Shown here piece by piece: positions 4,213-37,614 of a stretch of DNA of 64,000 nucleotides. The DNA is from Skermanella mucosa (GTDB lineage: Bacteria; Pseudomonadota; Alphaproteobacteria; Azospirillales; Azospirillaceae): the NCBI RefSeq assembly GCF_016765655.2, contig NZ_CP086106.1:186001-250000 (forward strand). Reading direction: 5' to 3'. Under the pieces are notes generated by a model that was not told where the DNA came from, did no database searches, and worked only from the letters and a program-made list of their open reading frames with translations. The position numbers were made by a program, and so were the translations under genes. The stretch's first letter is position 1. Every line of letters begins with the position of its first letter.

Positions 4213-4800
4213 ATCACGTTCTCCCAATGTTTGGCGCAAAGGTTTGATCCAGCAGCGTGCTTCCTCTTTCCAACCGTAATAGAGGATGTAGATTAGTCCA
4301 GGATCCGAAATAGAGAATGCTTTCGGTAAGGACGTAACCTCACGCAGATTGCTCCAGCAAGAGGATCTGAGTGCCTGGCCATGTTCATGTCGGTTTCCTC
4401 GTCCGGTTGGTGCCCTTCCAACATTCCACATCGCCCAGCCGTTTCGCGCATCAGGTCACTTGTAACACTTCGTAACAAGCCAAAACTTTCTGAAACACAA
4501 TCGCCTGCATCTGAGTCACTGCCGGGGTGTTAGATCCCATTTTATGATCGGACAAACCCACACCACATGGTAGGAAGATGCCCCTTAACCTACAACATTT
4601 TGCATTCTCGGGTATTTATCACACGGGTTCTTATTGGACTGTCTTGGTGGTCGCAGCGTACGAGAATATAGAGAATTATAGCCGTATTTTGTATAGTCTA
4701 CAGAAATTCACGGTTTTGCGTCTGGATGGCTTCCATTCTTCCTTGCTGTCCTCGGTGCAGCAGGCGCCGCCTGATCCGGTTCGGCTTCATCGCCGGCAAG
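4213..4800. other. Long intergenic region with conserved promoter block
   Basis: No convincing gene. It holds the regulatory block shared with 9025-9200 and 20465-20640 (see box at 4462). On the minus strand the block contains AGGAAACCGAC followed by ATGAACATG, a possible leader or the relic start of a lost gene. The stretch 4600-4740 is unusually AT-rich for this window. Confidence 0.5.
4462..4477 (+). promoter_or_regulatory. GTAACA direct-repeat operator, copy 1
   Basis: GTAACACTTCGTAACA: two GTAACA half-sites with a 10-base period, as expected for an OmpR/PhoB-type regulator binding one face of the helix. The same 16 bases recur at 9120 and 20557, with a variant at 26628. This copy lies about 250 bp upstream of the minus-strand DUF326 gene. 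Confidence 0.6.
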
Positions 4801-5391
4801 CAGAGGTAGCGCTGTAAACGGTGCCGCTACCAGTTCACTCGACCTGAAGTCCATCGCACGCCGGAACCGACGCGATGCGCGGCCGTCAGTCTGTACGGCT
4901 ACAGTCTGTCGTTCAACGCCGTGGCCGACCTGCTCGGCACGACGACGCAGTCGATGCTGCGCTGGGTTGTGCCGCTATGTCGATCAGTACTGCGCCAAGC
5001 CGCCGCCGAGCGACGCGGTGGTGATCGAACTCGATGAAATGTGGCGCTTCGTGCAGCGCAAGGACAACAAAGTCTGGATCTGGAAAGCCTATGACCACGT
5101 GACCGGATGGCTGGTTGACCGGGAGTGCAGTGGCCGAGACGAGCGGACCTTCCGGCGGCTGTTCGACCGCTTCGCGCGCTGGAAGGTGGCTGTTCTGCTC
5201 CGACCGCTATGTCGTCTACCCGCTGGTGCTCGCGGTCGGCAGCCATTATCAGGGCACGGGCGAGACCGTTACCCTGGAGGGCAACAATGGCCAGCAGCGG
5301 CATTGGACCCCGATCCTGCGGCGGCGCTCTATCGTCATTTCCAAGTCCCTCGCCATGCCTCTCGCGCATCCAATGGATGCGCTGTCGGCCT
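4801..5391 (+). pseudogene. Degenerate IS1-family transposase
   Basis: The plus strand encodes, across several frames, RCKRCRYQFT (the InsA-type zinc ribbon end), YGYSLSFNAVADLLG, then IELDEMWRFV with WIWKAYDHVTGWLVD, and SDRYVVYPLV. These correspond in order to the InsA and InsB regions of IS1-family transposases, including the E/D catalytic region. There is an in-frame TAG near 4807 and at least two frameshifts (about 4965 and 5190), so no active enzyme can be made. Terminal repeats were not found. Confidence 0.65.
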
Positions 5392-5989
5392 GACAGCGGC
5401 GGCTTGCCACCGCGAACGGGATCGAGCGTCGGGTCGCCCTGTTTGCCCGTCTGCACGTCAACAAGCAGGCTGCTCCTGAAATGTACAGGCTGCCGATCCA
5501 CACCGGCAGGTCTTTTGCAATCAGCTAAAATGCAGCACTAGCCCGTGAAACCCTCGCCCCGCACTTCGATTCGCCAACTTGGCTACGAAGGCGAGGCTCC
5601 TCCGAAACTCAGGAGTTGGACGCTGAAGAGTCCCTCGCCGTCTGTCCAGCACTCGACGCTGCGCCACCCCGCAGCCTCAGCCAAGCGGCGGAACCCTGCC
5701 ACGGTGTACTTGTAGGAAACTTCGGTGTGGATCGTCTCGCCGGCCTCGAAGCAGAATGGCACGCCCGCCACCTGCGCCGTCTGTGCCCAGAGGCTCTCCA
5801 AATGCATCTCAACTCGCCCGAGTCGCTCGTCATAGAAGGCCCGGTGGATGAAGCCGCCGAGGTCGAACGTGCCGTCCAGTTCACGGTTGATCCGCTCAAG
5901 GAGGTTCAGGTTGAAGGCTGCGGTGACGCCGCGCGAATCGTTGTAGGCGGTGATCTGCCGTCGATGAAGTTGGACACCGGATTGTCCAT

Positions 5990-6373
5990 ATGGAAGAAGC
6001 GATGGAAGATCCGAAGAACACACCCAAGCTGCCGACGGACTCTGGTGAGAAAGCCGGGCCGAAGGTCATTCAGCGCTGGAGCGCCGCCCGCAAACGCGAG
6101 GTGGTCCTCCGTCTGCTGCGCGGTGAATCGCTCGACCTGATTTCCCGGGAGATCGGCATCGAGACTTATCGGCTGGAGCGTTGGCGCGACAAGGCGCTGA
6201 CGGCGATGGATGCCGGCCTGAAGGAGCGCGCCGACGACGATCCCGTCCAGGCTGGTCTCGACGCCGCCCACAAGCGGGTCGGCGAGCTGAGCATGGAAGT
6301 CGAGTTGCTGCGCGCCAAGATCGGGCGCCTGGAGGCTGGAACCCCTTTTCCCCGGGCGAGGTCGCGAAGATGA
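5990..6373 (+). CDS. IS3-family transposase OrfA (helix-turn-helix)
   Basis: A 127-residue protein with a DNA-binding helix-turn-helix region (WSAARKREVVLRLLRGESL then LDLISREIGIETYRLERWR) and a leucine-zipper-like tail (VGELSMEVELLRAKIG). This is the usual layout of IS3-group OrfA, which binds the terminal repeats. Its stop overlaps the orfB start as ATGA at 6370-6373, so OrfAB fusion by frameshifting or coupled translation is expected. Both reading frames are open. Confidence 0.8.
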   Translation: MEEAMEDPKNTPKLPTDSGEKAGPKVIQRWSAARKREVVLRLLRGESLDLISREIGIETYRLERWRDKALTAMDAGLKERADDDPVQAGLDAAHKRVGELSMEVELLRAKIGRLEAGTPFPRARSRR

Positions 6374-7263
6374 GCGCGGCGATCTCGCCTTCAACCCAGC
6401 GGCCCTACGGCGTGCAGCGGGTCTGCCGCATCTGGGCCCTGCCGCGCTCGACCTTCTACCAGGCGCGTCGCCCGGCCAACGCCGCTCCTGCCAGGCCACG
6501 CGGCCCCAGGCCGCCGGTCGATGACGCCAGCCTGCTCGCCGCCATCCGGGCCGACCTCGCCGCCTCGCCGTTCTCCGGCGAGGGCCACCGCAAGGTCTGG
6601 GCGCGCCTGCACTACGGCCTGGGCCTGCCGGTCGGTCGCAACCGCGTGCTGCGCCTGATGCGCGACAATCAGCTGCTCTCGCCGTTCCGGCGGCCGCCGC
6701 GCCCGGCCAACGACCATGACGGCACCATCCTGACCGAGGCCCCGGACGTCCTGTGGGGCACCGACGCTACCCTGGTGCAGACATCCCAAGAGGGCCGGGT
6801 CTGGGTATTCGCCGCCATCGACCACTTCAACTCCGAGGTCGTCGGGCATCATGTCTCGACCGATGGCTCGCGCTTCGCGGCACTCGAGCCAATCAGCCAG
6901 GCGGTGACATCCCGGTTCGGCGGGATCGCGGCCGATGCCGCCCGCGGCGTGGCGCTGCGCTTGGACAACGGGCCGCAGTACACGTCCCACCACTTCTCCC
7001 AGCAGATCGGCCACTGGGGCATGGCGCTGAGCTACGCCTTTGCGCACCAGCCGCAAGGCAACGGCGTCATCGAGCGGTTCTTCCGGACCCTCAAGGAACA
7101 GGCGATCTGGGGCCGGAGCTTCCGCACCGCCGCCGAAGTCAGGGCGGCGGTCAGCGATTTCGTGGCCCGCTACAACGCCGCTTGGCGACTGGAGCGGCTG
7201 GGCTACCTCAGCCCGCGCGACTACCGGAACCGCCACCGCCAGCCGGAAAGCCTTGCCGCATGA
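6370..7263 (+). CDS. IS3-family transposase OrfB (DDE integrase)
   Basis: A 297-residue protein with the rve integrase core: WGTDATLVQTSQ (first Asp), RLDNGPQYTSHHF (second Asp) and GNGVIERFFRTLKEQ (Glu), the DDE triad in the expected spacing, preceded by an HTH_21-like region (EGHRKVWARLHYG). The frame is intact and starts in a 4-base overlap with orfA. The element is probably still able to move if its left end is functional, which is doubtful because the left repeat looks truncated. Confidence 0.85.
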   Translation: MSAAISPSTQRPYGVQRVCRIWALPRSTFYQARRPANAAPARPRGPRPPVDDASLLAAIRADLAASPFSGEGHRKVWARLHYGLGLPVGRNRVLRLMRDNQLLSPFRRPPRPANDHDGTILTEAPDVLWGTDATLVQTSQEGRVWVFAAIDHFNSEVVGHHVSTDGSRFAALEPISQAVTSRFGGIAADAARGVALRLDNGPQYTSHHFSQQIGHWGMALSYAFAHQPQGNGVIERFFRTLKEQAIWGRSFRTAAEVRAAVSDFVARYNAAWRLERLGYLSPRDYRNRHRQPESLAA

Positions 7264-7521
7264 TCCATCCCGATGTTCGATCGAGGGCTGACCATCCCGC
7301 CGTCCCGACCTGCCACCCGGCAGGCCGCCGCGCGCAGGCCCGGTCAAGCAGGGCCATCGGCCCCCGCCACAGCGGCTTGTGCTTGACCGGGCCGAGCACG
7401 GTGGCATCCTTCCTTCAGGTCGGAAGCCCACAACCCCGACCAACCACCCCGTAACCCTTCGCCGGTGTCCAATCTATTGGTGGCGGTACAGGTGCAGCGT
7501 TGGAAGCCGAAGACTTCTCCA

Positions 7522-8793
7522 TCATGCATCCTCGGCCAGCCGCAGACCGGCAAACATCCAGCGCTGGTGCGGATAGAAGAAGTTCCGGTAGGTGGCGCGC
7601 ACATGCTCATCCGGTGTTACGCAACATCCTCCGCGTAGGACATATTGATTCGCCATAAACTTGCCGTTGTACTCGCCCACGGCACCCTTTGCTGGGCGGA
7701 AACCGGGATAGGAAGAGTAAGCGCTCGCCGTCCATTCCCAGACATCACCGAACATTTGAACGGGCTGCATTTCGGTGGTGAGTTTCGCCTGAACGGAACG
7801 CAGCAGACCACTTCCCAGCATGTTACCCCGCACCGGCAATCCGCGTGCGGCATTCTCCCATTCGAACTCGGTGGGCAGTCGTTTGCCAGCCCAGCGGGCA
7901 AAAGCGTCGGCCTCGTAGTAGCTGACGTGACAGACCGGAGTCTCGTCGTCGATCGGGATCTCGCCCATGAGCGTGAATTGAACCCAGCCACCGTCGCGCC
8001 GCCGCCAGTAACCTGGCGCCTCCCACTGCTGAGCATTTACGGTCGCCCAGCCGTCTGCAAGCCACAGTGTCGGCGTCCGGTAGCCCCCATCCTCAATAAA
8101 AGCCTGCCAGTCACCATTGGTTACCGGCCGCGAGAACACCCGGTGTGAGTGCAGCAGCGTCTCGTGAAAGGGACCCTCATTGTCGAAGGCGAAGCCCTGC
8201 CCCTCATGACCGATGCCGACAATTCCACCGTTGAAGCCAATCCAGCACCCCTCCTCCTTGGTCGTGGCTGGCGCGGGGCGGAATGAACGGTAGGCCGGGG
8301 CTGTCGGATTACAGGAGAAGAGGTGTAACAGATCCATGAGAATCAGCTCCTGGTGCTGCTCCTCATGGACAAGGCCGAGAGTGATGAGTGGTGTCAGCTT
8401 TTCGTCCGCTCCCTCCAGGAGGACGTGCATGGCGGTATCTACATGCCGGCGGTAGGCGAAGACTTCGGCACTGCCTGGCCGGGTCAGCAATCCTCGGGCG
8501 GGCCTCGGGTGACGCGCGCCGACTGTGTCATAATAGGAGTTGAAAAGGTAACTAAAGGATGAGTTGAAAGGCTGGTAGGACGGCAAGTGGGGCATGAGCA
8601 GGAAGGTTTCAAAAAACCAGGTTGTGTGCGCCAGATGCCACTTGACTGGACTCGTATCCGGCATCGACTGGACGACCTGGTCCTCCGGTGATAGTCCACG
8701 CGTGAGATCGATCGTGGCATCGCGGATGCGGATATAGCGCTCAAGTGACGTTGCCGCTTCGCACTGGGCTGCGATCCCCACCGTGTCCATCAT
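7522..8793 (-). CDS. egtB: Ergothioneine biosynthesis protein EgtB (iron-dependent sulfoxide synthase)
   Basis: A 423-residue protein with an N-terminal DinB-like helical domain carrying HLAHTTWFFE (about 54-63) and HEEQHQELILMD (about 145-156), which supply the iron-binding histidines. A C-terminal formylglycine-enzyme-like domain (about 190-420) ends in FYPHQRWMFAGLRLAEDA. EgtB joins hercynine and a thiol substrate through an oxygen-dependent C-S bond. The length is normal and GGAGG stands eight bases before the ATG. egtD follows with overlapping start and stop codons but is destroyed by an IS. A GTAACA operator lies about 330 bp upstream. Without EgtD elsewhere this enzyme lacks its substrate. 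Confidence 0.9.
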   Translation of the reverse strand: MMDTVGIAAQCEAATSLERYIRIRDATIDLTRGLSPEDQVVQSMPDTSPVKWHLAHTTWFFETFLLMPHLPSYQPFNSSFSYLFNSYYDTVGARHPRPARGLLTRPGSAEVFAYRRHVDTAMHVLLEGADEKLTPLITLGLVHEEQHQELILMDLLHLFSCNPTAPAYRSFRPAPATTKEEGCWIGFNGGIVGIGHEGQGFAFDNEGPFHETLLHSHRVFSRPVTNGDWQAFIEDGGYRTPTLWLADGWATVNAQQWEAPGYWRRRDGGWVQFTLMGEIPIDDETPVCHVSYYEADAFARWAGKRLPTEFEWENAARGLPVRGNMLGSGLLRSVQAKLTTEMQPVQMFGDVWEWTASAYSSYPGFRPAKGAVGEYNGKFMANQYVLRGGCCVTPDEHVRATYRNFFYPHQRWMFAGLRLAEDA

Positions 8794-9200
8794 TCTGTTA
8801 ATCCTCCACCCGGGAAATCTGCAAAAGCTGCCTCAGCCACGATCCTTCCATCAGAGGCGAGCCATCACACGATGGTGCGTCATCAAAGTCGGGCGATGAC
8901 TCCTATCCACCTCTTTCGAGGAGGCGCATTCGACGGAGCAGGGTGTCTGACGAGATATGCAGCTATCAAGTTGTATAGAGTTTTGCGCGGTTATTCGCGC
9001 AGATCCAGCGGCAACCAAAGCGGCTCTGGAGTTGCAGCAGCATGTTCATGACGGCTTCCTGAGGTTCGTGTCTTCCAAACACGCATCATCGTTCAGCCGT
9101 TTCGCGAGAGAGCTCACTTGTAACACTTCGTAACAGGCTGAAATTCTTTGCAGCAAAAGCGGCTGCATCAGAGCGCTCATCCAGGTGTTATCCAGATGTC
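8794..9200. other. Divergent intergenic region between egtB and the two-component system
   Basis: About 400 bp with no gene. It carries the second copy of the conserved block (about 9025-9200) including the GTAACA operator at 9120. On the minus strand the block again shows an AGGAAGCCGTC ribosome-like site before ATGAACATG, giving a possible 27-residue peptide (MNMLLQLQSRFGC...). Confidence 0.5.
9120..9135 (+). promoter_or_regulatory. GTAACA direct-repeat operator, copy 2 (response regulator promoter)
   Basis: GTAACACTTCGTAACA, identical to the copy at 4462, ends 65 bases before the response-regulator start codon. This position suits autoregulation by the OmpR-type regulator it precedes. That link is an inference. 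Confidence 0.65.
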
Positions 9201-9926
9201 ATGGAAACCACAGCCCACATCCTCATTGTCGACGACCATCAGGAAATCCGGGATCTGCTCGGCCGCTTCCTGGAGCGACATGGATTTCGATCGACCGTCT
9301 GTCGGGATGGAGCCGAGATGCGGCGCGCACTCGAGGCCACCCGTTTCGACCTCATCGTACTTGATCTGATGCTACCCGGTGACGACGGGCTCAAGCTCTG
9401 CCGCGAACTTCGATCGCCCGAGGCCGGGAACCCCGACATCCCCGTCATCATGCTAACGGCGATGGGCGAGGAAACTGACCGGATTGTCGGCCTGGAAGTG
9501 GGAGCCGACGACTACCTCCCGAAGCCATTCAACCCCCGAGAACTCCTCGCCCGCATCAGGGCTGTTCTACGCCGCACGGCCGGCCCTCATTCCGGTATCG
9601 TCAAGGCACCACATGAGTACCGGTTTTCCGGATGGGTTCTGGACCTCGTCCGGCGGGAGCTGACATCCCCACCCGGAGCCCTGGTCGCCCTCACGGGCGC
9701 CGAGTACGACCTTCTTCTCGCTTTTCTGGAGCGACCAGGCCAGGTGCTGAGCCGCGACCAGCTGCTGGAACTCGCGCGAAACCGCATCCACGGCTACGGC
9801 AGGAGCGTCGATGTCCAGGTCAGCCGTCTCAGGCATAAGATGGGTGACGACACATCCCTCAGCCCGCTCATCAAAACCATACGGGGATCCGGCTATGTCC
9901 TCACCGCGGATGTCGAGCGGGCATGA
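9201..9926 (+). CDS. OmpR/PhoB-family response regulator
   Basis: A 241-residue protein with an N-terminal receiver domain (acidic pair DDH near residue 12, phospho-acceptor Asp in DLIVLDLMLPGDDG, conserved Lys in DYLPKPF) and a C-terminal winged-helix DNA-binding domain (GAEYDLLLAFLERPGQVLSR to IKTIRGSGYVL). It forms a two-gene operon with the histidine kinase, whose ATG overlaps its stop (ATGA). The signal is unknown; copper or envelope stress is inferred from the neighbourhood. The GTAACA direct repeats at 4462, 9120, 20557 and 26628 are the best candidate binding sites. Confidence 0.9.
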   Translation: METTAHILIVDDHQEIRDLLGRFLERHGFRSTVCRDGAEMRRALEATRFDLIVLDLMLPGDDGLKLCRELRSPEAGNPDIPVIMLTAMGEETDRIVGLEVGADDYLPKPFNPRELLARIRAVLRRTAGPHSGIVKAPHEYRFSGWVLDLVRRELTSPPGALVALTGAEYDLLLAFLERPGQVLSRDQLLELARNRIHGYGRSVDVQVSRLRHKMGDDTSLSPLIKTIRGSGYVLTADVERA

Positions 9927-11272
9927 TGGCGAGGATGGTGGCGGCTCTGCGATCGCTGGTGCCGGACACTATCGTCGGCCGTGCCGTGGCAATCCTGCTG
10001 GTAGCACTGGCTCTGTCGCACCTGCTCAGCATGGGCTGGTACCAATCCTACCTGTCCTATCAGGCCGACCTGGTCGATGAACGGGTTGCGGCCGAGCGGA
10101 TTGCGGCGGTCAAACAGGCCGTCACGGCCCTGCCGCCCGAGGAGCGCGAGAGTGCCGCGCATTCCCTGTCCGGCCGCGGCCTCACCGCCCATTGGGGCGC
10201 CATTCCGTTGGTCGAGGAGGCGTCCGCCCGTGACGATCGACTCGATATGCTGGTGCGCCGCCTTCAGCAGTTGGTTCCCGAGATCGACGGCAACGGCCTT
10301 CGTGTCGCCTACGCGGCGAAGGGATACGGCGCCGACCATGTCCTGCTGGTATCGACAAGGCTGCCCGACGGAAGCTGGATCAACGCCCGGGCGACGGCAC
10401 TGAGCGCCCTAGACAGGCAGGATCGGCACTTCATCGTTCCGACCACGCTGATGTCGCTCGCCATCCTGGCCGTCTCCATCTATCTGGTGCGCGTCTGCAC
10501 CGCCGAGTTCAGGAGCATTGCCCGCGCGGCGCGACGACTCGGGGTTGATGTGACGGCGCCACCCCTGCCGGTCCATGGGCCGGAAGAGGTGCGGGAGGCT
10601 GCTACGGCGTTCAACGAAATGCAGGGCAGAATCCGCACCCTGGTAACGGATCGGACACAAATGCTTGCCGCCATCTCACACGATCTTCGCTCTCCCATCA
10701 CGACCATCCGGCTGCGCGCGGAGTTCATCGAGGAGGGCGAAGAGCGTGACCGCATCCTGGCCCAACTGGACCAGATGGAGGCTATGGTATCCGCCACGCT
10801 GTCCTTCCTCAGGGACGACGGAGGACGGGAGGAGACCAAGGTGGTCGATGTCAGCGCGCTGCTGGCGACCATCTGTGACGACCTGTCCGATGCGGGCCGT
10901 CCGGCATGCTTTCGGGGTCCCAGCGGGGCGACGATGAGATGCCGTCCGATTGGCCTGAAACGTGCTTTGGCGAACCTGATCGAGAACGCGGTCAAGTATG
11001 GCGCCTCCGCCACCGTGATTCTGGAGACTTCGCCGGGCCGTCTGGAGATCTCGATCGACGACGAGGGCCCAGGCATCCCCGACACCGAACTGGAGGCGGT
11101 GTTCAATCCATTCTACCGTCTTGAGGAGTCCCGCAATAGGGAGACGGGTGGTTTCGGTCTCGGCTTGACGGTGGCCCGGTCGGTCATCAGGGGGCACGGT
11201 GGCGATCTGGTCCTGGAGAACCGCCCGTCCGGCGGACTGCGCGCCTTGATTACGCTCCCATGGGTGTCCTGA
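9923..11272 (+). CDS. EnvZ-like sensor histidine kinase
   Basis: A 449-residue inner-membrane kinase: first membrane segment at about 18-40, a periplasmic sensor loop of about 130 residues without recognisable metal-binding motif, second segment at about 170-190, a HAMP linker, a HisKA domain with phospho-acceptor His in ISHDLRSP, and a HATPase domain with NLIENAVKYG, DEGPGIPDTELEAVFNPFYR and GFGLGLTVAR. Length and order are those of the EnvZ class. It overlaps the response-regulator stop by four bases. A palindromic terminator follows at 11321. The sensor loop lacks the Met/His clusters of CusS, so a copper ligand is not evident. Confidence 0.9.
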   Translation: MMARMVAALRSLVPDTIVGRAVAILLVALALSHLLSMGWYQSYLSYQADLVDERVAAERIAAVKQAVTALPPEERESAAHSLSGRGLTAHWGAIPLVEEASARDDRLDMLVRRLQQLVPEIDGNGLRVAYAAKGYGADHVLLVSTRLPDGSWINARATALSALDRQDRHFIVPTTLMSLAILAVSIYLVRVCTAEFRSIARAARRLGVDVTAPPLPVHGPEEVREAATAFNEMQGRIRTLVTDRTQMLAAISHDLRSPITTIRLRAEFIEEGEERDRILAQLDQMEAMVSATLSFLRDDGGREETKVVDVSALLATICDDLSDAGRPACFRGPSGATMRCRPIGLKRALANLIENAVKYGASATVILETSPGRLEISIDDEGPGIPDTELEAVFNPFYRLEESRNRETGGFGLGLTVARSVIRGHGGDLVLENRPSGGLRALITLPWVS

Positions 11273-11320
11273 CCCTTCCGGAGGCAGGTCCTCGAGCGCA
11301 GCATGCAAACTAAACTGCTC

Positions 11321-11348
11321 CCTTGATCATGATCAAGGTGGTTTTTCC
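11321..11348 (+). terminator. Probable intrinsic terminator after the two-component operon
   Basis: CCTTGATCATGATCAAGG (11321-11338) is a perfect 18-bp palindrome followed at once by TGGTTTTT. It begins about 48 bases after the kinase stop codon. The hairpin has essentially no loop, so it would fold with a few central bases unpaired. Confidence 0.55.
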
Positions 11349-11445
11349 GGACCCTCCCCATGTTGCCGATGCCGGCCCGTCCTATCAGCCTGACAGAGCA
11401 GTTGGTGTCTGCTCAATGGCATCATTACGAAGCGGGGATGAAAAT

Positions 11446-11700
11446 ATGGCCATGCGGCGCAGGTCGGAAGTTACGCTCAAGACAGTGGTGATCAGCCTAC
11501 TGGCACTGGTGACGTTGCTCGTCTACGCTGTCCCGAGTTACGCCGGCTTACTGCCCGACGACTGTTGGATTGCGCTCAACGAGCAGGTAGTAGTCACGAC
11601 AACCACCGGAACCGTTGATAGCCGTGACTATAGGCTTCTGCGCCTGACCGGGCGGGAAAAAGCCGTGCGATCATTCACAGATCATCCCTGTGCTAGTTGA
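11446..11700 (+). CDS. Small secreted hypothetical protein, probably truncated by IS relic
   Basis: The reading from ATG 11446 begins MAMRRRSEVTLKT and has a clear signal peptide (hydrophobic core ISLLALVTLLVYAV, cleavage near SYAG). A short mature part of about 50 residues with one internal and one terminal Cys follows. The reading ends exactly where homology to the IS3-family relic starts (about 11695), so the natural C-terminus has probably been lost. No family recognised. Confidence 0.45.
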   Translation: MAMRRRSEVTLKTVVISLLALVTLLVYAVPSYAGLLPDDCWIALNEQVVVTTTTGTVDSRDYRLLRLTGREKAVRSFTDHPCAS

Positions 11701-12116
11701 AGAAGCAGGCGATCTGGGGCCAGATCTTCTGCACCGCCGCAGAAGTCAAAGCGGCTTTCTGCGATTTCGTCGCCCGCTACAACGCTGACTCGCGAATGGA
11801 GCAACTGGACTATCTCATCCCGCTCGACTACCGGAACCGCCATCTCCGGCCGGAAAGCCTTGCCGCGTGATCCATCCCAATGCCCGATCGAGGGCCGAAC
11901 ATCCCGCCGTCCCGCCCTGCCGAGCGGCAGGCCACCGCGCGCAGGGCCAGTCAAGCAGGGCTGAAGAAGCATTGGCACCGTGAGCCATGCTCGACAGCGA
12001 CTTGCGCCTGACCAGACCGAGCACGGCGGCATCCTTCCTTCAGGTCGGAAGTCCACAACCCGGACCAAATACCCTGTAACCTTTCTCCGATGTCCAATCT
12101 GTTGGTGGCGGTACAA
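11700..12116 (+). mobile_element. Decayed 3' end of an IS3-family element
   Basis: The stretch matches the last 170 bases of orfB and the whole 3' untranslated end of the element at 5971-7490, with scattered substitutions, and ends in the same right terminus (GGTGGCGGTACA). The encoded tail CDFVARYNADSRMEQLDYL parallels SDFVARYNAAWRLERLGYL of the intact copy. The left part of the element is missing, so it cannot move by itself. Confidence 0.7.
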
Positions 12117-12150
12117 CTTGTCTACCCTCATCTCGGCATCCGCCCTAACT

Positions 12151-12351
12151 TCAAGCAGCGACCTTAACCGAAAACCCGGCATTCTCAATGGCCTGCCGCA
12201 CGGCCTGCTCATCCGGATTGCCCTCGACAATTATCTCGCCGGCCTTTAGGTCCACCAAGGCCCGCTCTACAGAAGGGATCGCTTCAACAGCTCTCGTAAC
12301 GGACTTGGCGCATCCACCGCAAGCCATTCCATCAACTCTCAGCTTCAGCAT
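12151..12351 (-). CDS. copZ: CopZ-like HMA metallochaperone, copy 2
   Basis: A 66-residue single HMA domain with the metal site MACGGC and the same overall sequence as the copy at 1004-1204 (shared SVERALVDLKAGE and AVRQAIE segments). AAGGAGAG stands before ATG 12351. Unlike copy 1 it has its own CueR-type promoter at 12381-12411, so it should respond directly to cytoplasmic copper. Its function is presumed to be Cu(I) delivery to CopA or sequestration. The gene sits alone between an IS relic and the manganese catalase. Confidence 0.8.
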   Translation of the reverse strand: MLKLRVDGMACGGCAKSVTRAVEAIPSVERALVDLKAGEIIVEGNPDEQAVRQAIENAGFSVKVAA

Positions 12352-12380
12352 GATACTCTCCTTGTTACTATGATCCGCCA

Positions 12381-14686: not shown

Positions 14687-17046
<2,360 letters not shown>

Positions 17047-18167: not shown

Positions 18168-18377
18168 AACCCGTATCCTCTTGAAAAGATGGGGTTATGC
18201 TCCTCATGTCGGGGGTACTTTGCAAGCCGCTCTTGGTGGCGGCAGCTACATAAGACCGCTGAAGTCCGACTTGGCAAGCCTGCGCACAGCGTCGGCACGG
18301 TTCCGCGCACATTCTGCAATGCTCGTGCATCGACGCATGGCTGTCGCATTCCGTACCGCTCAGGCGACAAGCGACCG

Positions 18378-19775
18378 GAGCTATAGCGGAATTTGGGTGA
18401 CGGTCCGATCAGGCGGCGTCCTGTGAGGCGGGATCGGAGACCTCGATGCCGTCACGGAATGTGATGCCCTGAATGACCTTGGGCAACTGGTTTTCGCCCT
18501 GAAGGCGGCGCCAGGTTTTCGCGGCGGCGGTGATCAGCTTGAAGACCATCAGCCTGGCGGTTTGCTGCGAGAGCGCGCCTTTGGTCCGGAATGTCCGGTG
18601 CCGTACGGTCGCGAACACGCTTTCTATGGGATTCGTGGTCCGCACGTGATCCCAGTGTTCGGCGGGGAAGCCGTAGAAGGCGAGCAGAGCCTCGCGGTCC
18701 CGGGTCAGGCACTCGACCGCCTTGGCGTACTTGGCCGCATACTTCTTCTCGAAGGTGACCAGGGCGGCTTCCGCCGTCTTGCGGTCCGGAGCCATCCAGA
18801 TCTCCCGCAGGTCCCGCTTCACCGCGGGCTGGACGGACCGGGGCACCTTGTTCAGGACATTGACCGATTTGTGTTGCCAGCAGCGCTGATGCCGGGTCGC
18901 GGGGAAGACCTCCTCCAACGCCTTCCAGAACCCGAGCGCGCCGTCGGCGATTGCCAGTTCGGGGGCGACCGCCAAGCCGCGGGCCTGGATGTCGACCAGC
19001 AGCTCGCGCCAACTCTGCGCGCTCTCGCGCACGCCGACCTGGAAACCGACCAGCTCCTTCCGGCCCTCCGGGGTGGCGCCGATGATCACCAGCATGCACT
19101 CGGCCGCCGGTTCCATGCGGGCCTGGAGGTAGACGCCGTCGGCCCAGACATAGACGTACCGGCGGGCCGACAGGTCGCGCCCCTGCCAGCGCGCGTAGTC
19201 GGCCGCCCAGTCCTCCTTCAGCCGGACGAGGACGGCGGGTGACAGGTTCGGCGCCTCCTTGCCGAGCAGCGCGGCCAGGGCTTCCTGGAAGTCGCCGGTG
19301 GAAATGCCGCGAAGATAGAGGATGGGAAGCAGAGCATCCAGGCTGCGTGTCCGGCGTGCCCAGCGCGGCAGCAGTGTCGAGGTGAAATCGATGCGCTCGC
19401 CGCCATTCTCGGCACCGCGGTCGCGGACCTTGGCCCGGCGGACCTCGACCGGGCCGATGCCGGTCTGGATCACGCGCTCCGGGCCGTGACCATGCCGGAC
19501 AAGCCGGTCACGGCCATCCGGCAGTTTGAGGTCCTTCCGCTCGGCCAGGAAAGCCGCCACCTCCGCCTCGATCGCCTGCTCCAGCAGCCGACGGGCTCCG
19601 GTTCGCAAAACGGCGGTCAACGGGTCGTCGATCTCGTCAGGCTGACGCAGCGGGACAACTTTGCTATCTTCGGTCATGGCGTATCGCTCCCTCGTGGAGG
19701 TTCTGGCAGGTTTGGTCACCCACCTCGATACGCCGCCTTCCTCAGACCGTCATCACCCAGTTTCCGCCATAGCTC
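18378..19775 (-). mobile_element. IS256-family element inside DUF326 copy 2
   Basis: The ends are GAGCTATAGCGGAATTTGGG and, inverted, GAGCTATGGCGGAAACTGGG, and each side is followed by the 9-bp direct repeat AAGCGACCG (18369-18377 and 19776-19784). A 1,398-bp element with one long transposase gene on the minus strand. Removing it with one repeat copy restores the DUF326 reading frame. Confidence 0.9.
18409..19677 (-). CDS. IS256-family (mutator-type) transposase
   Basis: A 422-residue protein with the mutator-type signature (LPELAIADGALGFWKALEEV-like region around APELAIADGALGFW, followed by RHQRCWQHKSVNVLNKVP) and DDE acidic residues in YVWADGVYLQAR and IADGALGFW. The start was set at MTEDSKVVPLRQ (19677), with GGGAGCGA about ten bases upstream, rather than the longer frame. 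Normal length, no frameshift. Confidence 0.9.
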   Translation of the reverse strand: MTEDSKVVPLRQPDEIDDPLTAVLRTGARRLLEQAIEAEVAAFLAERKDLKLPDGRDRLVRHGHGPERVIQTGIGPVEVRRAKVRDRGAENGGERIDFTSTLLPRWARRTRSLDALLPILYLRGISTGDFQEALAALLGKEAPNLSPAVLVRLKEDWAADYARWQGRDLSARRYVYVWADGVYLQARMEPAAECMLVIIGATPEGRKELVGFQVGVRESAQSWRELLVDIQARGLAVAPELAIADGALGFWKALEEVFPATRHQRCWQHKSVNVLNKVPRSVQPAVKRDLREIWMAPDRKTAEAALVTFEKKYAAKYAKAVECLTRDREALLAFYGFPAEHWDHVRTTNPIESVFATVRHRTFRTKGALSQQTARLMVFKLITAAAKTWRRLQGENQLPKVIQGITFRDGIEVSDPASQDAA

Positions 19776-20052
19776 AAGCGACCGCGCAGGCCCTCAGTGT
19801 GAAGCGGATCAGTTCTTCGTTCGATCCGGTGCATCGTGTCGCGACTGATCCAGTGGCCACACAGATGTCCGCGCATTCGAGATTGAGCCGAATGCACTGA
19901 CGGAGTTCCTTGACCATGTCCTCGGCCAAGCAGGCGTCCGCATACGAGATGCAGGTCTGAGCGCAGGAGTAACACTCCTCGATAGAGCGAATCAGGGCGT
20001 CACTGACGTTGCCCTTCACGTCGGGATGTATATCAATTATCTCGCGGGCCAT

Positions 20053-20896
20053 TATGCTACATTCCCCCAGTGTTTGTTATGATGGCTGATCTCAGCATAG
20101 TGCTTTGTCTTGCTACCTTCTTAGAGGCGCAGTTTCATAAATAAAGCAACTCGTAATCCGAAATAAAACGAGATCACAACGAGTGCATGATCTCATCCGA
20201 CTTGCCCTAACTAAGGACATCCAGCCTCCTCGGCGAAACCTCTGGAAGGGACAGAATCGGGCAGCACGTTTGACTACTCTGGACTGGGTGAGAACACTAT
20301 TTCATAGACAGCCGAGGGAGGCATGTACATCAGGCAACATTGGCGCGACAGAGGACGCCGCTTCGAGTCATGCCCATTATCTGATGAGGTTCCAGCGTGC
20401 CTGCAGCACATTTCCCGGACCGAGATTTCTCAAGCAAGCACCATGTCAATCAGGCACTTCTGGATGCACTGCTACATGTTCGCGACGGCCTCCTTTGCGA
20501 GGTTGATGCCCTTTAAACACTCCATATCACTAGCCGTCTCGCGAACGAACTCATTTGTAACACTTCGTAACAAGCTGAAGTTCTTTGAAACTAAAGCGGA
20601 TATCATAAGCAGTACCGGCGTCTTTGATCGCTGTGATGCTGGAGCGGTCTTTGCGGGACGGCGGTGCCATATGTAACGGGTCTAGTGACTGTCGATAATG
20701 GCCGCAGGCACAGCCCTCCGCCCGTCGGGCGCCGACCTTCACTCATCCCGGAGGGGCATCCAGGCAAGAGCGCCGCAACTAAGGGCAGACGCGAAAATAA
20801 GTTATGCAGTTTGTGGAAATAAACAGGGCCGGATGCCTTCAGTATGGAGGAGTTAAATGCATTACATATTCCTGCGTCTGTCTTAAAGAAGCATTC
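20053..20896. other. Long gene-free region upstream of DUF326 copy 2
   Basis: About 840 bp between the DUF326 start and the GH15 stop codon. No ORF with plausible composition or ribosome site. It carries the third copy of the conserved promoter block (about 20465-20640), whose minus-strand ribosome-like site is followed by GCGAACATGTAG, so the leader ATG of the other copies is lost here. Confidence 0.5.
20557..20572 (+). promoter_or_regulatory. GTAACA direct-repeat operator, copy 3
   Basis: GTAACACTTCGTAACA, identical to the copies at 4462 and 9120, inside a homologous block. It lies about 500 bp upstream of DUF326 copy 2 on the minus strand, paralleling copy 1 in front of DUF326 copy 1. Confidence 0.6.
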
Positions 20897-22693
20897 TTAG
20901 CTGCTGGCGCGTTGCGTTGCGGGCCGGAGGCCTGCAGACAGGTTGCGGGCACTGTTGGCAAGAGCAAGGTGGCTGAAGGCCTGTGGAAAGTTACCAAGAT
21001 GCCGGCCGGTGCGAGGATCATACTCCTCCGCTAAGAGGCCGACATCGTTTCGCAAGTCCAGAAGCCGTTCGAACAAAGCGCGCGCATCATTGTGCCGTCC
21101 CAGGAGGGCTAGATTGTCTACGAGCCAGAAGCTGCAGGCCAAAAATGCTCCCTCCCCGGGTGGCAGGCCGTCAGCTGCTTCTCCGGTATTATAACGTAGC
21201 ACTAACCCATCCACGACAAGACGTTGCTCGATCGCATTGACGGTCTGCTGGACGCGTAGATCACTTGGGGGTAGGAAGCCGACCAGAGGGATTAAAAGCA
21301 AGCTGGCATCCAGCTCCGTCGACCCATACGATTGCACGAAGCTGCTTAGATCGGAATTGAATCCGTTGCGACATACGTCTTCGTGAATTGTGCGCCGAAG
21401 TTTGCGCCAATGCTCCACAGGGCCTTTGAGGCCCAAGGTCTCCACGCCCTTGATAGCACGGTCGAGAGCAACCCAGGCCATGACTTTGGAATGGGTGAAG
21501 TGGCGGCGCCCCCCACGCACCTCCCAGATGCCCTCATCGGGCTCTTTCCAGACTGTCTCGAGATGATCAACAAGTGCGCGCTCCAGAGCCCAGCCCGCTT
21601 CGCTCCCGGGAAGCCCTGCGACTCGTGCCTGGTAAAGAGCGTCGATCACCTCTCCGAAAACGTCGAGTTGGAGTTGCCCGAACGCGGCATTGCCCACGCG
21701 GACAGGCTGCGAGCCTTCATAGCCGGGCAGCCACGGCACCTCCCACTCGTTTAGATGGCGCTCGCCGGCGACACCGTACATGATCTGTACCTGTTGGGGA
21801 CTTCCTGCCGCAGCACGCAGCAGCCACTCGCGCCAAGCGCATGCTTCTTCTAAGTAGCCGGCGTCAATGAGCGACAACAGTGTAAACGTAGCATCTCGCA
21901 GCCAACAGAATCGGTAGTCCCAATTGCGGGGCCCTCTGAGTTGTTCCGGTAGAGAGGTGGTCGGCGCGGCAACTATGCCGCCCGTCGGGCGGTAGGTTAA
22001 AGCTTTGAGCGTAATGTGGGAGCGCAGAACGGCATCGCGCCACTCACCCGTGTGCTGACAGCGCGATGACCACTCTTGCCAGAATGCCTCGGTGTCCTTG
22101 AGAGCAGCAACCGGGTCAACAGGCTCCGGCAGGCGGAGGTGTGAGGGGCCGTAGGTGAGGACGAATGAGGCACTCTCTCCCGCATGAATCGTGAATTCAC
22201 CAAGGGTCTTAAGATTCTCACCATGGAGTGGGACTGTCGTCCGCAGTACGACCATATCCGGGCCTGCGATGGCCCGCAAGCCAGTCCCGTCTGGCAAACG
22301 AGTGACCCACGGGATCATGGTGCCGTAGCCGAAACGAAGCACCAACTCCGTACGCATTGTAACTTGCCCACGCCTCCCGACAACGATGCGCACTAAATCG
22401 GATGCAGCACCACGTAACGGCATGAAGTCAATCAGTGTGACGGCGCCATCCGCCGTCACAAAGTCAGTCTCCAGGATCATTGTCCCATTACGGTAATGTC
22501 GACTGACACGCGGCCCCGACTCGACGGGAGCAACGATCCAGTGTCCATGCTCCGGCCCGCCGAGCAATGCAGCAAAGCACGCGCCAGAGTCAAACCGCGG
22601 CCAACACAGCCAGTCGATTGATCCGTTACGATCCACTAGGGCTACGGTCTCGCAGTCGCCGACCAGCGCATAATCCTCAATCCGAGACGGCAT
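20897..22693 (-). CDS. Glycoside hydrolase family 15 protein (glucoamylase/trehalase type)
   Basis: A 598-residue protein with an N-terminal beta-sandwich domain (IEDYALVGDCETVALVDRNGSIDWLCWPRFDS) and an (alpha/alpha)6-barrel from about residue 215. The likely general acid Glu is in PDEGIWEVRGG, before HFTHSKVMAWVALDR. The likely general base is the Glu of LLAEEYDPRTGRHLGNFPQAF. Family members hydrolyse alpha-glucosidic bonds; this subgroup is often annotated as trehalase or glucoamylase, and substrate cannot be told from sequence. ATG 22693 is preferred over the TTG at 22705 because GGAG lies six bases before it. It is the third gene of the SPW-fusion/SDR operon. Confidence 0.85.
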   Translation of the reverse strand: MPSRIEDYALVGDCETVALVDRNGSIDWLCWPRFDSGACFAALLGGPEHGHWIVAPVESGPRVSRHYRNGTMILETDFVTADGAVTLIDFMPLRGAASDLVRIVVGRRGQVTMRTELVLRFGYGTMIPWVTRLPDGTGLRAIAGPDMVVLRTTVPLHGENLKTLGEFTIHAGESASFVLTYGPSHLRLPEPVDPVAALKDTEAFWQEWSSRCQHTGEWRDAVLRSHITLKALTYRPTGGIVAAPTTSLPEQLRGPRNWDYRFCWLRDATFTLLSLIDAGYLEEACAWREWLLRAAAGSPQQVQIMYGVAGERHLNEWEVPWLPGYEGSQPVRVGNAAFGQLQLDVFGEVIDALYQARVAGLPGSEAGWALERALVDHLETVWKEPDEGIWEVRGGRRHFTHSKVMAWVALDRAIKGVETLGLKGPVEHWRKLRRTIHEDVCRNGFNSDLSSFVQSYGSTELDASLLLIPLVGFLPPSDLRVQQTVNAIEQRLVVDGLVLRYNTGEAADGLPPGEGAFLACSFWLVDNLALLGRHNDARALFERLLDLRNDVGLLAEEYDPRTGRHLGNFPQAFSHLALANSARNLSAGLRPATQRASS

Positions 22694-22726
22694 CTTGGGC
22701 TCCAAGGTGCAGTTAAAGAAACAGGC

Positions 22727-23542
22727 TCAACCGTTCTCCCGGAACCCCGGATAGAGGGCCATGCCCCCGTCGACGAATATTGTGGTTCCAACCACATAGT
22801 CCGATGCATCCGACGCTAGCCAGACCGCGGCTTTCGCAACGTCTTCCGGCTCGCCGACCCGCCCGTAAGGGATCAGCTCAAGCAGCTTGCGTTCAGCCGC
22901 AGATGTACTCCAGGCCTCCCTGTTGATTGACGTCTTGATGGCTCCCGGCGCATTGCCGTTTACCCGGATGCCATGCTCGGCTACCTCCTGGGCGAGGCTT
23001 TTCATCATTAGCATGATGCCACCCTTTGATGCCGCGTAGTTGATGTGCCCAGCCCAAAGAACAACTTCATGGACAGAGTACAAACAGATAATTTTACCCC
23101 GTGCTCGTGAGACCGACGGGGCAACTCCCTGCTTCAGGAACCGCCGGACTGCCTCGCGGGCGCACAGGAACTGGCCTGTAAGGTTCACGTTGATGACACG
23201 CTGCCACTGATCTAAGGTCATATCGCTAAAGGGCGCGTCCTGTTGAATCCCAGAGTTCGCTACCAAGATATCAATTCGGCCGAACTCACCGATGAAAGCA
23301 TCGGGCATGGCTTGGACCTCGGTCTCATTCGAAACATCAGCTTCAAGTGGGATCGCTTTACTACCACTCTCTCGGATGTTCTCGACAATCCGCTGTGCTC
23401 CTTCAGGATGGGAGCGGTAATTGACACCAACTGCCGCTCCGGCGGCCCCTAAGGCATAGGCGGTAGCAGCTCCGATGCCTGAGCTGCCACCGGTTACCAG
23501 AGCCGCTTGGCCATGTAACGGATGAGGATTATCATGAACCAT
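22727..23542 (-). CDS. Short-chain dehydrogenase/reductase (glucose 1-dehydrogenase-like)
   Basis: A 271-residue classical SDR: nucleotide-binding TGGSSGIG, NxGI-type motif VANSGIQ, catalytic Ser in ICLYSVHEV, Tyr-x-x-x-Lys in INYAASKGG, and a C-terminal FVDGGMALYPGF. The Rossmann fold lacks a clear acidic residue after beta-2 (NYRSHPEG), which favours NADP(H). Start ATG 23542 is backed by GAGGAA; the longer frame begins with TTG and overlaps the preceding gene. It lies 11 bases after the epimerase/SPW gene and 33 before GH15, so one operon. Substrate unknown, perhaps a sugar given its neighbours. Confidence 0.9.
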   Translation of the reverse strand: MVHDNPHPLHGQAALVTGGSSGIGAATAYALGAAGAAVGVNYRSHPEGAQRIVENIRESGSKAIPLEADVSNETEVQAMPDAFIGEFGRIDILVANSGIQQDAPFSDMTLDQWQRVINVNLTGQFLCAREAVRRFLKQGVAPSVSRARGKIICLYSVHEVVLWAGHINYAASKGGIMLMMKSLAQEVAEHGIRVNGNAPGAIKTSINREAWSTSAAERKLLELIPYGRVGEPEDVAKAAVWLASDASDYVVGTTIFVDGGMALYPGFRENG

Positions 23543-23553
23543 GATTGTATTCC

Positions 23554-26202
23554 TCAAATGATGTACCGGTCCCAGCTTGCATAGTGCTCGTTGCTACGTC
23601 GCCCACGCGGCAGACTCAGGCCCATAAGCGCCAACCCCAAAATGACGCTCGCTATGGCAGCTAGATTTGAGGCACCGTCAAGAAGCCAAGGCGCAACGAC
23701 GAGCCACACGCCGAACAGAACGTTGATGAACCGAAGCGGGCGAGCCACCTCTGCCGTCGCAATGATCGCCACGGTGATAATCAGCGCGCCGACGATATGG
23801 TCGCTGTTGGCCATCTGGCCCGACGTTCCGAAGATAGGCCGGGTCAACATGAGAAACGCGCCAATGGCCATTGAAACGCTGAGCGTCCAGGGCAATGTGA
23901 CACCGCGTATCGTATCCATCCAAATCGCACGGGGGCTTGAGAGTGTATCGGAGGTGTCCTCCTGGCCGCCGTCAACCGCGTCGCCCTGAAAGAAGGTCCG
24001 GACCAGCGGCTTGCCCCGGCAATGAGCCCAGTACAGAAACTGTCCCATCGCGATTACCTCGTCCAGGGCGAAGGGGATCATGACGAGCATTGCGGCTGCT
24101 GCGAGCAATGCGGGCGTGCTCCAAGTGCCGATCACAATCGGCTGGATGATGATGAAATAAATGCTCACTACCCCAAGCGGGATCACAAGGATGCCGAAGA
24201 AGGTCACCATCCACGGCATTGTACGCCAACGGTCGCGGGTGCCCATGACTGCCATAAGGATCTCGAGTATGTAACTCACGGCACCCAAACCCGCATCCGG
24301 GATGGGCCAAGCCTTCGAGACGGCCGAGGTAATAATCTCCTCCGTACCGTTCTTCGGGTCGAGGGGATTGCCCGCGAAGACCGGCTCCCAGGCGTAATCA
24401 ACGTGCCCGAGCTGGTAAGCGGTAAGCATGCGCGAGATAAGAAGGCCAATAAGGCCCAGAGCGGCAATTGGTAGCCGCTGCGCGCCGGTCGATGGACAGT
24501 AGGTCCAGCCGGGTGGCACCACCTTCGGGTCCATCATGCCAGCCATGCTCATGCCTGGCATCATGGGTACAAGTACAGAGAAGGCGATCACGAGCGAGCC
24601 GACGAGAAGGTTGTTTTGGTATTGCGCTGCGCTCGGGCTCCAAAATAGAAGCGGAGCGAACAAGAGCCAGATTCCAATGAAGGTGACCGCCCACTGCGCG
24701 AACCAGGCTGTTCGTTTGGAAAGCGAAAGAGTGCCGAACAAGGCGATTAACAGCCCGCTGACAATGTCGCTCGCCATGAGGGCGCCCGCTCGCCATTCGA
24801 CTGAGGGCAGCCCGCGCTCTTCAGTCACAGCGTGGACCGCAGCGCCTACTGTCTCGCTCGAAACCGCGTCATAGACCAGCGGACTGGCTGCGAGCCACAA
24901 GCCTAAGCCGACGTTGGCGAAATGTGCCCAACGGGTGCGCCGGGCGTCCTGCTCCATCATGGCCATGTGATCATGACCACCCATACCGGTCATTGGGTCA
25001 TTTCCGGAATGGGCATCACCTTGTTCTGTGTGACCCATCGCGGCATGGTCGGCACTATCGTCGTCATGAGCCAAGGCACTGGCGGCTGCGCCGTGGTCCG
25101 TGCTTTCTTTCGGAGTTTCGCGTGCTGGCCGCTGTCCATGCCAAGCGACGAGAGCGGGATTCAGCTTGTTTGCTTTGTACCAAGCGACAGGGTCCCGCTG
25201 GAGCGCCGCCACGATCCGGGGGAGTGTATCGCGCAACCTGTGTTTCGGTTCCCAGCCAAGGAGTTCGCGCGCCCGTGAAGTGTCCAGCACATAATGGTCG
25301 TTTGCCTGCTCGACCATCCAAGGCTTGATGAAATCGTCTGAGCCGATTACCTCATCCTGAAGCCATGTACCCACTTTGGCAAGACCCTGAGGAACACGCA
25401 CCGTCATCCAGTTCTCACCATGCATGGCTTCACCGATGATGTTCTGCACTTCCGCATACCCCACCGCATCTGACTCGCCGATGAGGAGCGGGAGTTCAGG
25501 CGGGAGATCGCGACGGCGCTCGACCAGGCGGGCGATAGCGTCACTCAGGTCGTCGATGTGGACGAAGGACTGACCGGCACAAAGCATCCCGGGGTAAAGG
25601 TGGGCGATGAGCCGGTGCTCATAAATCCGTGCTACCTGCTCAGCGATAAAGGGAGAGTGGCCAAGATCGTCATAGACGCCAGCGACTCGGAGCATAACCA
25701 CCGGGATTTGTCCGTGCCGTTCGTGCAGCAGGCGCTCTGTGCGCACCTTCGACTCGGGGTAAGACCAGGACGGTTCGACAGGCGAACTCTCGTTGATGAG
25801 CTTGTCTGGCCGATTGGTAGGCTTATGGACCAGCATCGTGCTCGCCAAGACGAACTGCTCGACGTCAAAGTCTTGAAAGCTGTCTATCAGCCGACGTGTG
25901 CCCTGGACGGTAATCTTGTCGTAGAGCGCGTTCGGTTCGCCTGAAACATCATAGTAGGCGGCGAAGTGCAGGACGGAGGCGATATGTGTCCCAAAGCGGC
26001 GGCGAACCTCCTCTAAGGCAACTATCACCTTTTCGTCTGAGCTCAAATCAAAGTCAACGGCGTGGGCTGGCGCCGGCGGGTCAGGCGGACCGGGACGGTC
26101 AAGAGCAACAAGCGTATACTGCTCAGCCAGTCTTTTGATGACGCCGCTGCCGATGAAGCCACTTGCACCTGTTAGAACAATGACATCCTTATTCTCCGGC
26201 AT
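23554..26202 (-). CDS. Fusion of NAD-dependent epimerase, VKOR-like membrane domain and SPW repeats
   Basis: An 882-residue protein. Residues 1 to about 330 are an extended SDR (TGASGFIG dinucleotide site, catalytic YPESK). A His/Met-rich linker (about 370-430, HDHMAMM) follows, then about ten membrane segments. The membrane part has SPW-repeat-like blocks (LAASPLVYDA, LLFWSPSAAQYQNNLLVG, WLVVAPWLLDG) around a segment resembling vitamin K epoxide reductase-like proteins (IYFIIIQPIVIGTW then AAAAMLVMIPFALDEVIAMG). In relatives I recall, the W is followed by a CxxC pair; here it reads WSTPALL, so both cysteines are missing. GGAGAATA precedes ATG 26202. First gene of the operon; function unknown. 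Confidence 0.8.
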   Translation of the reverse strand: MPENKDVIVLTGASGFIGSGVIKRLAEQYTLVALDRPGPPDPPAPAHAVDFDLSSDEKVIVALEEVRRRFGTHIASVLHFAAYYDVSGEPNALYDKITVQGTRRLIDSFQDFDVEQFVLASTMLVHKPTNRPDKLINESSPVEPSWSYPESKVRTERLLHERHGQIPVVMLRVAGVYDDLGHSPFIAEQVARIYEHRLIAHLYPGMLCAGQSFVHIDDLSDAIARLVERRRDLPPELPLLIGESDAVGYAEVQNIIGEAMHGENWMTVRVPQGLAKVGTWLQDEVIGSDDFIKPWMVEQANDHYVLDTSRARELLGWEPKHRLRDTLPRIVAALQRDPVAWYKANKLNPALVAWHGQRPARETPKESTDHGAAASALAHDDDSADHAAMGHTEQGDAHSGNDPMTGMGGHDHMAMMEQDARRTRWAHFANVGLGLWLAASPLVYDAVSSETVGAAVHAVTEERGLPSVEWRAGALMASDIVSGLLIALFGTLSLSKRTAWFAQWAVTFIGIWLLFAPLLFWSPSAAQYQNNLLVGSLVIAFSVLVPMMPGMSMAGMMDPKVVPPGWTYCPSTGAQRLPIAALGLIGLLISRMLTAYQLGHVDYAWEPVFAGNPLDPKNGTEEIITSAVSKAWPIPDAGLGAVSYILEILMAVMGTRDRWRTMPWMVTFFGILVIPLGVVSIYFIIIQPIVIGTWSTPALLAAAAMLVMIPFALDEVIAMGQFLYWAHCRGKPLVRTFFQGDAVDGGQEDTSDTLSSPRAIWMDTIRGVTLPWTLSVSMAIGAFLMLTRPIFGTSGQMANSDHIVGALIITVAIIATAEVARPLRFINVLFGVWLVVAPWLLDGASNLAAIASVILGLALMGLSLPRGRRSNEHYASWDRYII

Positions 26203-26761
26203 TCATTATTCTCCTGCTCTTTACATTTTCAAGGTGGCAGCGGCGCGAATCACGCTTTCGAGCGGCGGATGAGTTCTACCCTCTTCTTTTGATTGTTCGC
26301 GGGAACTGGCTCCTCGGATGACCATCTGGACTTAGGATCGGCGAGTGACAACCGGTTCAGGTTAACTGCCGCTTTGCCGTGTAAATGCCTGCATGCTAAT
26401 CGCGGCTGATGACCAGTCTGCACGCAGGCCGTGTCATTGGCTTTGCATCTCACTCTCCCTCACCAGCTTGAACAACGCTTCCGGGCCCTTGAGGTGTTTG
26501 AGGCACAGCTTTAGCCCGTGTTCAACATTTGATTGGCGCATCACCTGCAGTGGTGACGCACCTCATCAGGTAGTGACGCCTTCTCAAACACAGCCGCAAT
26601 CCGGCAGTTTCCCCTGCCGGCTGATTTGTAACAATTCGTAACGAAGGGAGGACGGCCTCAAGGATCCCCTCGTCGCCAGGCAGTGCACTCCTGGGCTGTT
26701 CAGTTCTTACCGCGATGCGTGCAAGGATGATCTGGCAGCCTGCCAGGATCGCGCAATGAAC
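26203..26761. other. Intergenic region upstream of the SPW-fusion operon
   Basis: No gene is apparent in these 560 bp. It includes the variant GTAACA operator at 26628 and presumably the operon promoter on the minus strand. Confidence 0.45.
26628..26643 (+). promoter_or_regulatory. GTAACA direct-repeat operator, variant copy 4
   Basis: GTAACAATTCGTAACG: same layout as the three identical copies with two differences. It lies about 430 bp upstream of the minus-strand epimerase/SPW operon. The surrounding sequence is not otherwise homologous to the other blocks beyond CTGATTTGTAACA. Confidence 0.5.
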
Positions 26762-37608: not shown

Positions 37609-37614
37609 GGGGCC

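Follow-up and report, generated by a model that had tools for sequence, protein, structure and literature searches.

The window, a stretch of 64,000 nucleotides from Skermanella mucosa (contig NZ_CP086106.1, positions 186,001 to 250,000), carries four copies of a GTAACA direct repeat, here called sites A to D, among two genes of the DUF326 family, an egtB-like gene, a regulator-kinase pair and a fusion gene (Table 1). Copper handling is the likeliest theme of these sites. The fusion gene encodes 882 amino acids with NAD-dependent epimerase, VKOR and SPW domains, and its only ortholog among 82 genomes of the order (E<=1e-100) and among 385 genomes of a class sample (E<=1e-150) was the window's own. 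DUF326 copy 2, regarded in an earlier sequence-only reading as a target, is interrupted by a Mutator-family insertion element, presumably of the IS256 type. Elsewhere in the window, the front end of a CopA-type ATPase (2-292; 89% identical to the G080 protein over 97 amino acids) is cut by the left edge, a second P-type ATPase (35% to the CopA of G080) adjoins a CueR-like match (41%) within 35392-38019, and a manganese-catalase ORF at 12610-13689 matches its family only over the first 195 residues, the rear appearing by eye to be out of frame. The product of DUF326 copy 1 aligns over residues 4-128 of 134 with residues 4-128 of the solved Csp3 structure 5arm (E=2.2e-44) and is by this homology a Csp3-type protein; against the Csp1 family (TIGR04401) it scored 35 bits, the cut-off being 100. 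The match begins at residue 4, which, read from the alignment start alone, leaves little room for a signal. Csp3 proteins are reported to be cytosolic, to bind many Cu(I) ions and, on expression in E. coli, to raise copper resistance (PMC7558416).

Table 1. Genes, sites and other features of the island (positions in the window).
Feature	Position	Strand	Remarks
DUF326 copy 1, Csp3-type copper storage protein	3808..4212	-	open frame intact
Leader beside site A	4340..4459	-	homologous leader at this place in three relatives
Site A	4460..4477	+	TTGTAACACTTCGTAACA
Site A, putative weaker third and fourth half-sites	4482-4487, 4492-4497		
egtB-like gene	7522..8793	-	DinB_2 and FGE-sulfatase domains; name egtB from the earlier reading
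Site B	9118..9135	+	18-mer TTGTAACACTTCGTAACA, upstream of the OmpR-type regulator
Site B, putative weaker half-sites	9140-9145, 9150-9155		
OmpR-type response regulator	9201..9926	+	receiver and winged helix; best NCBIfam match OmpR, below cut-off
EnvZ-like sensor histidine kinase	9923..11272	+	HAMP, HisKA, HATPase_c; best NCBIfam match EnvZ, below cut-off
DUF326 copy 2, rear (aa 93-130)	18259..18372	-	beyond the insertion
Mutator-family insertion element	18368..19784	-	10-base direct repeat at ends; transposase 18409-19719; splits DUF326 copy 2
DUF326 copy 2, front (aa 1-93)	19775..20055	-	broken
Site C	20555..20572	+	18-mer TTGTAACACTTCGTAACA
Site C, putative weaker half-sites	20577-20582, 20587-20592		
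Epimerase-VKOR-SPW fusion	23554..26202	-	nearest leftward gene to D; candidate target
Site D	26626..26643	+	TTGTAACAATTCGTAACG, 1 mismatch in 16 specified bases; without third or fourth half-site

The regulator belongs to the OmpR/PhoB class by its domains (PF00072, 1.6e-31; PF00486, Trans_reg_C, 3.1e-20). Among 94 families it scored best against OmpR (PRK09468), with 245 bits under a cut-off of 331, and it is therefore treated as OmpR-like and not filed as OmpR. The kinase scored best against EnvZ (PRK09467) among 73 families, with 184 bits under a cut-off of 415. In the stretch that we take to hold the OmpR recognition helix the regulator reads RSVDVQVSRLR and E. coli OmpR reads RSIDVQISRLR. 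The claim that this is the only OmpR-type regulator in the window is borne out for full-length proteins, a scan with the regulator sequence returning otherwise two partial, receiver-only matches at 49750-50536. By eye, the presumed periplasmic part of the kinase is without Cys and poor in His and Met, and direct copper sensing is therefore not evident.

The 16-mer GTAACACTTCGTAACA is found identically at 4462, 9120 and 20557, each time on the + strand, with a variant, GTAACAATTCGTAACG, at 26628 on that strand, just as the sequence-only reading had it. The conserved unit is an 18-mer starting at 4460, 9118 and 20555, with its variant at 26626. The distances given earlier hold as well: site B ends 65 bp before the regulator start and lies 324 bp from egtB, and sites A, C and D lie 247, about 500 and 423 bp from the leftward genes, DUF326 copy 1, DUF326 copy 2 and the SPW fusion, respectively, as measured from the coordinates. 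Counts in the window are far above those of its shuffles, with four occurrences of the 16-mer at up to 3 mismatches against 0.05 expected, and four of GTAACA-N4-GTAACA at up to 2 mismatches against 0.70, a number reached in 1/100 shuffles.

The scans were extended to the whole genome (7.84 Mb, 5 contigs), with counts of control patterns alongside. With at most one mismatch TTGTAACANNTCGTAACA was found at A to D only (reversed control 0); with at most two it was found five times against 0 in the control, the fifth match lying 48 bp before a paralogous regulator; with at most three the counts (9+0 vs 6+5 in the control) are background-like. Exact GTAACA-N4-GTAACA, to which site D does not conform, has four matches genome-wide, namely A, B, C and C1:4459950, which lies outside the island in a gene context that is not clear from ORF translations read by eye. 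Since these matches are few and the control gave 0, the motif is not equally frequent at random places, which is what the genome-wide scan proposed in the sequence-only reading was to decide. Neither GTNACA pairs, scanned for distant targets (6 vs 1 in the control, three of the 6 being A to C), nor TNGTNACANNTNGTNACA with one mismatch in the window's genome (8 vs 3) stood out, and ORF translations read by eye made no copper or regulator gene evident at the other matches (L004, L010, L011, L013, L174, L175). A sigma-70 scan gave no promoter match in the region of B and, in that of A, one + strand match against 0.5 expected, which is uninformative.

The anatomy of the sites was examined by scoring GWAACA at offsets -20 to +61 over A, B, C and the sites of the relatives G080, G081 and G078. 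The four highest means fell at +2 (6.00), +12 (5.67), +32 (4.83) and +22 (4.33), the next being 3.33, and site D scores 2/6 at each of the last two of the four half-site positions (+22 and +32). This suggests four half-sites at 10-bp steps in A to C and in the three relatives, the two on the regulator side being weak. The two half-sites with a 10-base period described earlier are confirmed, but in A to C the repeat probably extends by two weaker ones.

This layout is that of an OmpR box. GTAACA-N4-GTAACA differs by one base per half from the E. coli box GTTACAnnnnGTTACA, with its layout GTTACA-N4-GTTACA (PMC7315122); the ChIP-exo motif of OmpR is reported to contain GTTACATTTTGTTACAT (PMC5438342), and predicted OmpR boxes listed for Acidithiobacillus caldus include GTAACAAGTTGTAACAGGTG (PMC9861516). 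The regulon had been called undescribed, which can hold for this wiring but not for the kind of site, the OmpR box being published; among the matches listed in open-licence literature, in titles and the starts of abstracts, none mentioned a wiring of Csp3 to an OmpR-class two-component system. With EnvZ/OmpR of E. coli the system shares a regulator 48% identical to OmpR, a similar recognition region and tandem half-sites 10 bp apart, but it differs in having GTAACA and not GTTACA as half-site, in a kinase only 29% identical to EnvZ over 319 aligned columns, in adjoining copper-storage genes and in scoring under both family cut-offs. Bordetella RisA resembles it in a GTTACA motif, determined by ChIP-seq, and in a site in its own promoter; unlike the four strong sites in one island described here, RisA has 430 binding sites, and its authors report finding no autoregulation (PMC11019879). 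The CztR/SilR/CopR regulators are likewise of the OmpR class and stand beside copper genes, yet the regulator scored 146 bits against their family (TIGR01387; cut-off 279.2), and the box here is a direct repeat of OmpR type.

As the motif was first picked for its identity within the window, the identity of A to C alone proves little, and the relatives, which had no part in that choice, constitute an independent test in G080, G081 and G078. Both G080 and G081 have one perfect site between DUF326 and the regulator-kinase pair, 65 bp before the orthologous regulator; the identities are 96% and 95% for DUF326 and 95% and 90% for the regulator, respectively. G078, with a regulator 83% identical, has a 2-mismatch site at 66 bp, and its divergent gene encodes a different DUF326-family, Csp-like protein. 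G079 lacks a close ortholog, its best regulator match being 58% identical, and a search at up to 2 mismatches found no site there except that before the paralogous regulator. In the same island of G080, CopA- and CueR-type genes lie near csp. Two 2-mismatch sites of G080 (L051 16152-16169 and 17049-17066) lie upstream of an RTX gene and of a PCu(A)C copper chaperone; their flanks are unlike the csp leader and they therefore look independent.

The claim that the repeats are operators of the neighbouring OmpR-type regulator is supported by this same position in three relatives, by related GTAACA pairs before many more distant homologs and by the OmpR-box layout. That the repeat instead belongs to a mobile element, or arose by chance, is very improbable, even though a transposase-bearing element and transposase-like ORFs occur in the region and the copies have flanks in common: there is a single perfect copy in G080 and G081 and a single 2-mismatch copy in G078, at a fixed place before the regulator, and the alignment of the shared leader weakens near the old csp start. 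The position kept in three relatives already contradicts such an origin, and because the site stays before the regulator in all three we rejected carriage by a mobile element; a chance repeat was rejected on the shuffles and the genome-wide rarity in addition to this position.

Comparison with the relatives also bears on the arrangement of the window. Segments 3593-4515 and 9041-11547 both match overlapping parts of one G080 stretch, and the site-bearing piece is therefore present twice in the window. For what lies between, 4516-9040, which includes egtB and transposase-like ORFs, the compared stretches of G080 and G081 gave no match at this locus. Control of egtB by site B, which it faces and whose target it had been proposed to be, is unsupported because the gene lies in inserted DNA.

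Sites A, B and C align pairwise across about 140-180 bp. For D, the left flank (60 bp) compared with those of B, G080, G081 and G078 beats at least 2999 of 3000 random stretches; against A and C the likeness is weaker (0.9% and 0.13% of random stretches equally good), and on the right flank clear homology is absent (fractions 0.014 to 0.91). With both flanks of A to C and the left flank of D homologous, these are not four separate recruitments, and the picture of four separately acquired targets gives way to one in which A to C appear to be duplicates of a single divergent promoter whose left side recurs in D. On the aligned flanks, A to D are apparent descendants of a single divergent promoter between a Csp3-type gene and the regulator. 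Between site and csp start, a recognisable leader is present in A, B, C and three relatives; that of G078 (L053 7972-8043) contains an inverted repeat, GGCTGATG/CATCAGCC, and Rfam at gathering scores gave no RNA-element match in 3500-27500.

The two sides of the promoter have fared differently in the copies. Identity to G080 and G081 on the Csp3 side amounts to 0.86 and 0.85 for A, and to 0.73 and 0.67 for B; on the regulator side the values are 0.82 and 0.85 for B, and 0.59 and 0.58 for A. The regulator-side flanks of A and C have 0.52-0.61 identity to each other, to B, and to G080 and G081. No base of the 18-mer varies among A, B, C, G080 and G081, and of the 158 flank columns 63 are invariant in the same five. 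These figures bear on the possibility that only autoregulation is real, with B serving the regulator operon and A, C and D being relics without a present target. The homologous flanks of A to C, the one side shared by D and the conservation across the family of the place before the regulator would agree with it, as would the broken gene at site C and the second csp3-like genes (G000 3452410, G080 3797265, G079 1950145), near which no site was found at up to 2 mismatches. Against it, the 18-mer is still identical in A and C despite the divergence of their regulator-side flanks, on its Csp3 side A has stayed close to G081 and G080 (0.85-0.86), and the divergent place is occupied by a DUF326-family gene in three relatives. 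We regard autoregulation alone as a real possibility that is on balance doubtful; it shares the OmpR-box core with the explanation preferred below, so that the probabilities of the two overlap.

Homologs of the regulator were searched in 82 genomes, and the loci of 30 matches (L021-L050) were inspected. The site lies at 65-66 bp in L021-L024. All 21 loci L030-L050, from the genus group with Azospirillum sp. B21, have a GTAAC pair upstream, at 72-73 bp in 20 and at 127 bp in L045, and each has a further pair closer to the start by 28-29 bp; in L027 the pairs lie at 151 and 44 bp. Upstream pairs were absent from L025, L026, L028 and L029. At L025 (G038) the regulator is preceded, 518 bp away, by an RTX gene of the same strand, which has a 3-mismatch palindromic site 39 bp before it; in the best of four comparisons the left flank of that site was like the G078 leader to a degree matched by 1 of 2000 random stretches.

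A wider set comprised the best 80 of 556 homologs, from named genomes, with pairs scored out of 12. A pair of at least 10/12 within 250 bp was found in 31 of the 80, which are not independent since many come from the same genera, as compared to 6 of 400 stretches drawn at random from these loci and mostly coding; the remaining 49 score 8 or 9. A divergent LTXXQ gene (a minus-strand match starting at most 700 bp upstream) accompanies 18 of the 80, and among these best 80 of 556 a pair of at least 10 is present in 16 of the 18 LTXXQ loci vs 15 of the 62 others. Paralogous regulators in the window's genome (G000) and in G051 also stand opposite LTXXQ genes with a pair between. These systems, mostly of Azospirillum, in which an LTXXQ (Spy-like) gene is divergent from an OmpR-class regulator, resemble the present one in the divergent target and the upstream GTAAC pairs but differ in the target, which is an LTXXQ protein there and copper storage here. 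The arrangement of target gene, GTAAC pair and regulator is thus found repeatedly in the family, copper storage being the local target here; a Csp3 gene stands next to the regulator only in the S. stibiiresistens locus among the best 80 of 556. One-mismatch sites were also noticed about 130 bp before an HlyD-type membrane-fusion gene (L054 7669-7686) and, by eye, near efflux-type genes (L059 5883-5900, L060 5077-5094).

All five Skermanella genomes compared have TTGTAAC(T/G)GATCGTTACA about 47-48 bp before the paralogous OmpR-class regulator, and in the window's genome this site (L057 6326-6343) faces an LTXXQ (Spy-like) gene. A different OmpR-class regulator, e.g. the paralog C1:2488551, might bind the island sites in a shared or crosstalk regulon, since the two recognition regions are almost alike and the paralog has a similar site of its own, TTGTAACTGATCGTTACA. 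We consider this unlikely, as G079, which has the paralog and its site, lacks both the island site and a close ortholog of the island regulator.

The most likely interpretation, as judged from sequence comparison, is an autoregulated OmpR-class system that would drive copper storage. In full, the repeats would be OmpR boxes of the regulator at 9201-9926, predicted to be bound by it and spread by copying of the two-way csp3/regulator promoter, and this we hold to be quite probable. The phosphorylated regulator, partner of the EnvZ-like kinase, would bind the tandem boxes, with copper or envelope stress as the presumed signal. In the ancestral promoter one operator would have served, by autoregulation, the regulator-kinase operon on its right and, on its left, a copper-storage gene. 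The operators of A to C may hold up to four 10-bp half-sites, two strong and two weak, with room for two dimers side by side. Of the copies, A would have kept the Csp3 side and B the regulator side, C, whose Csp3 gene carries an insertion, would be in decay, and D would be an old partial copy ahead of the epimerase-VKOR-SPW fusion gene. The comparative case is strong for predicted control of the regulator's own promoter, control of csp3 copy 1 is likely, and for the broken DUF326 copy 2 the matter is moot. Several observations weigh against this interpretation: the 247-500 bp that separate A, C and D from the next leftward start are far for a direct activator, the second csp3-like genes have no nearby site, an extra exact match lies at C1:4459950, and four loci (L025, L026, L028, L029) and 49 of the 80 wider homologs are without a pair at the threshold.

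If the preferred interpretation is true, Csp3 copper storage would be tied to an OmpR-class two-component system. One may speculate further that an OmpR/EnvZ-class system, whose relatives face a Spy-type envelope chaperone, was rewired to copper storage in the Skermanella island, that its two-way operator was then copied, with the storage side and the regulator side split between copies, and that further copies were offered to new genes, so that an island-limited regulon would be growing by operator duplication; we give this scenario somewhat less than an even chance. The island would then be a small case of regulon growth by copying of one promoter, of which the relatives show the single-copy arrangement.
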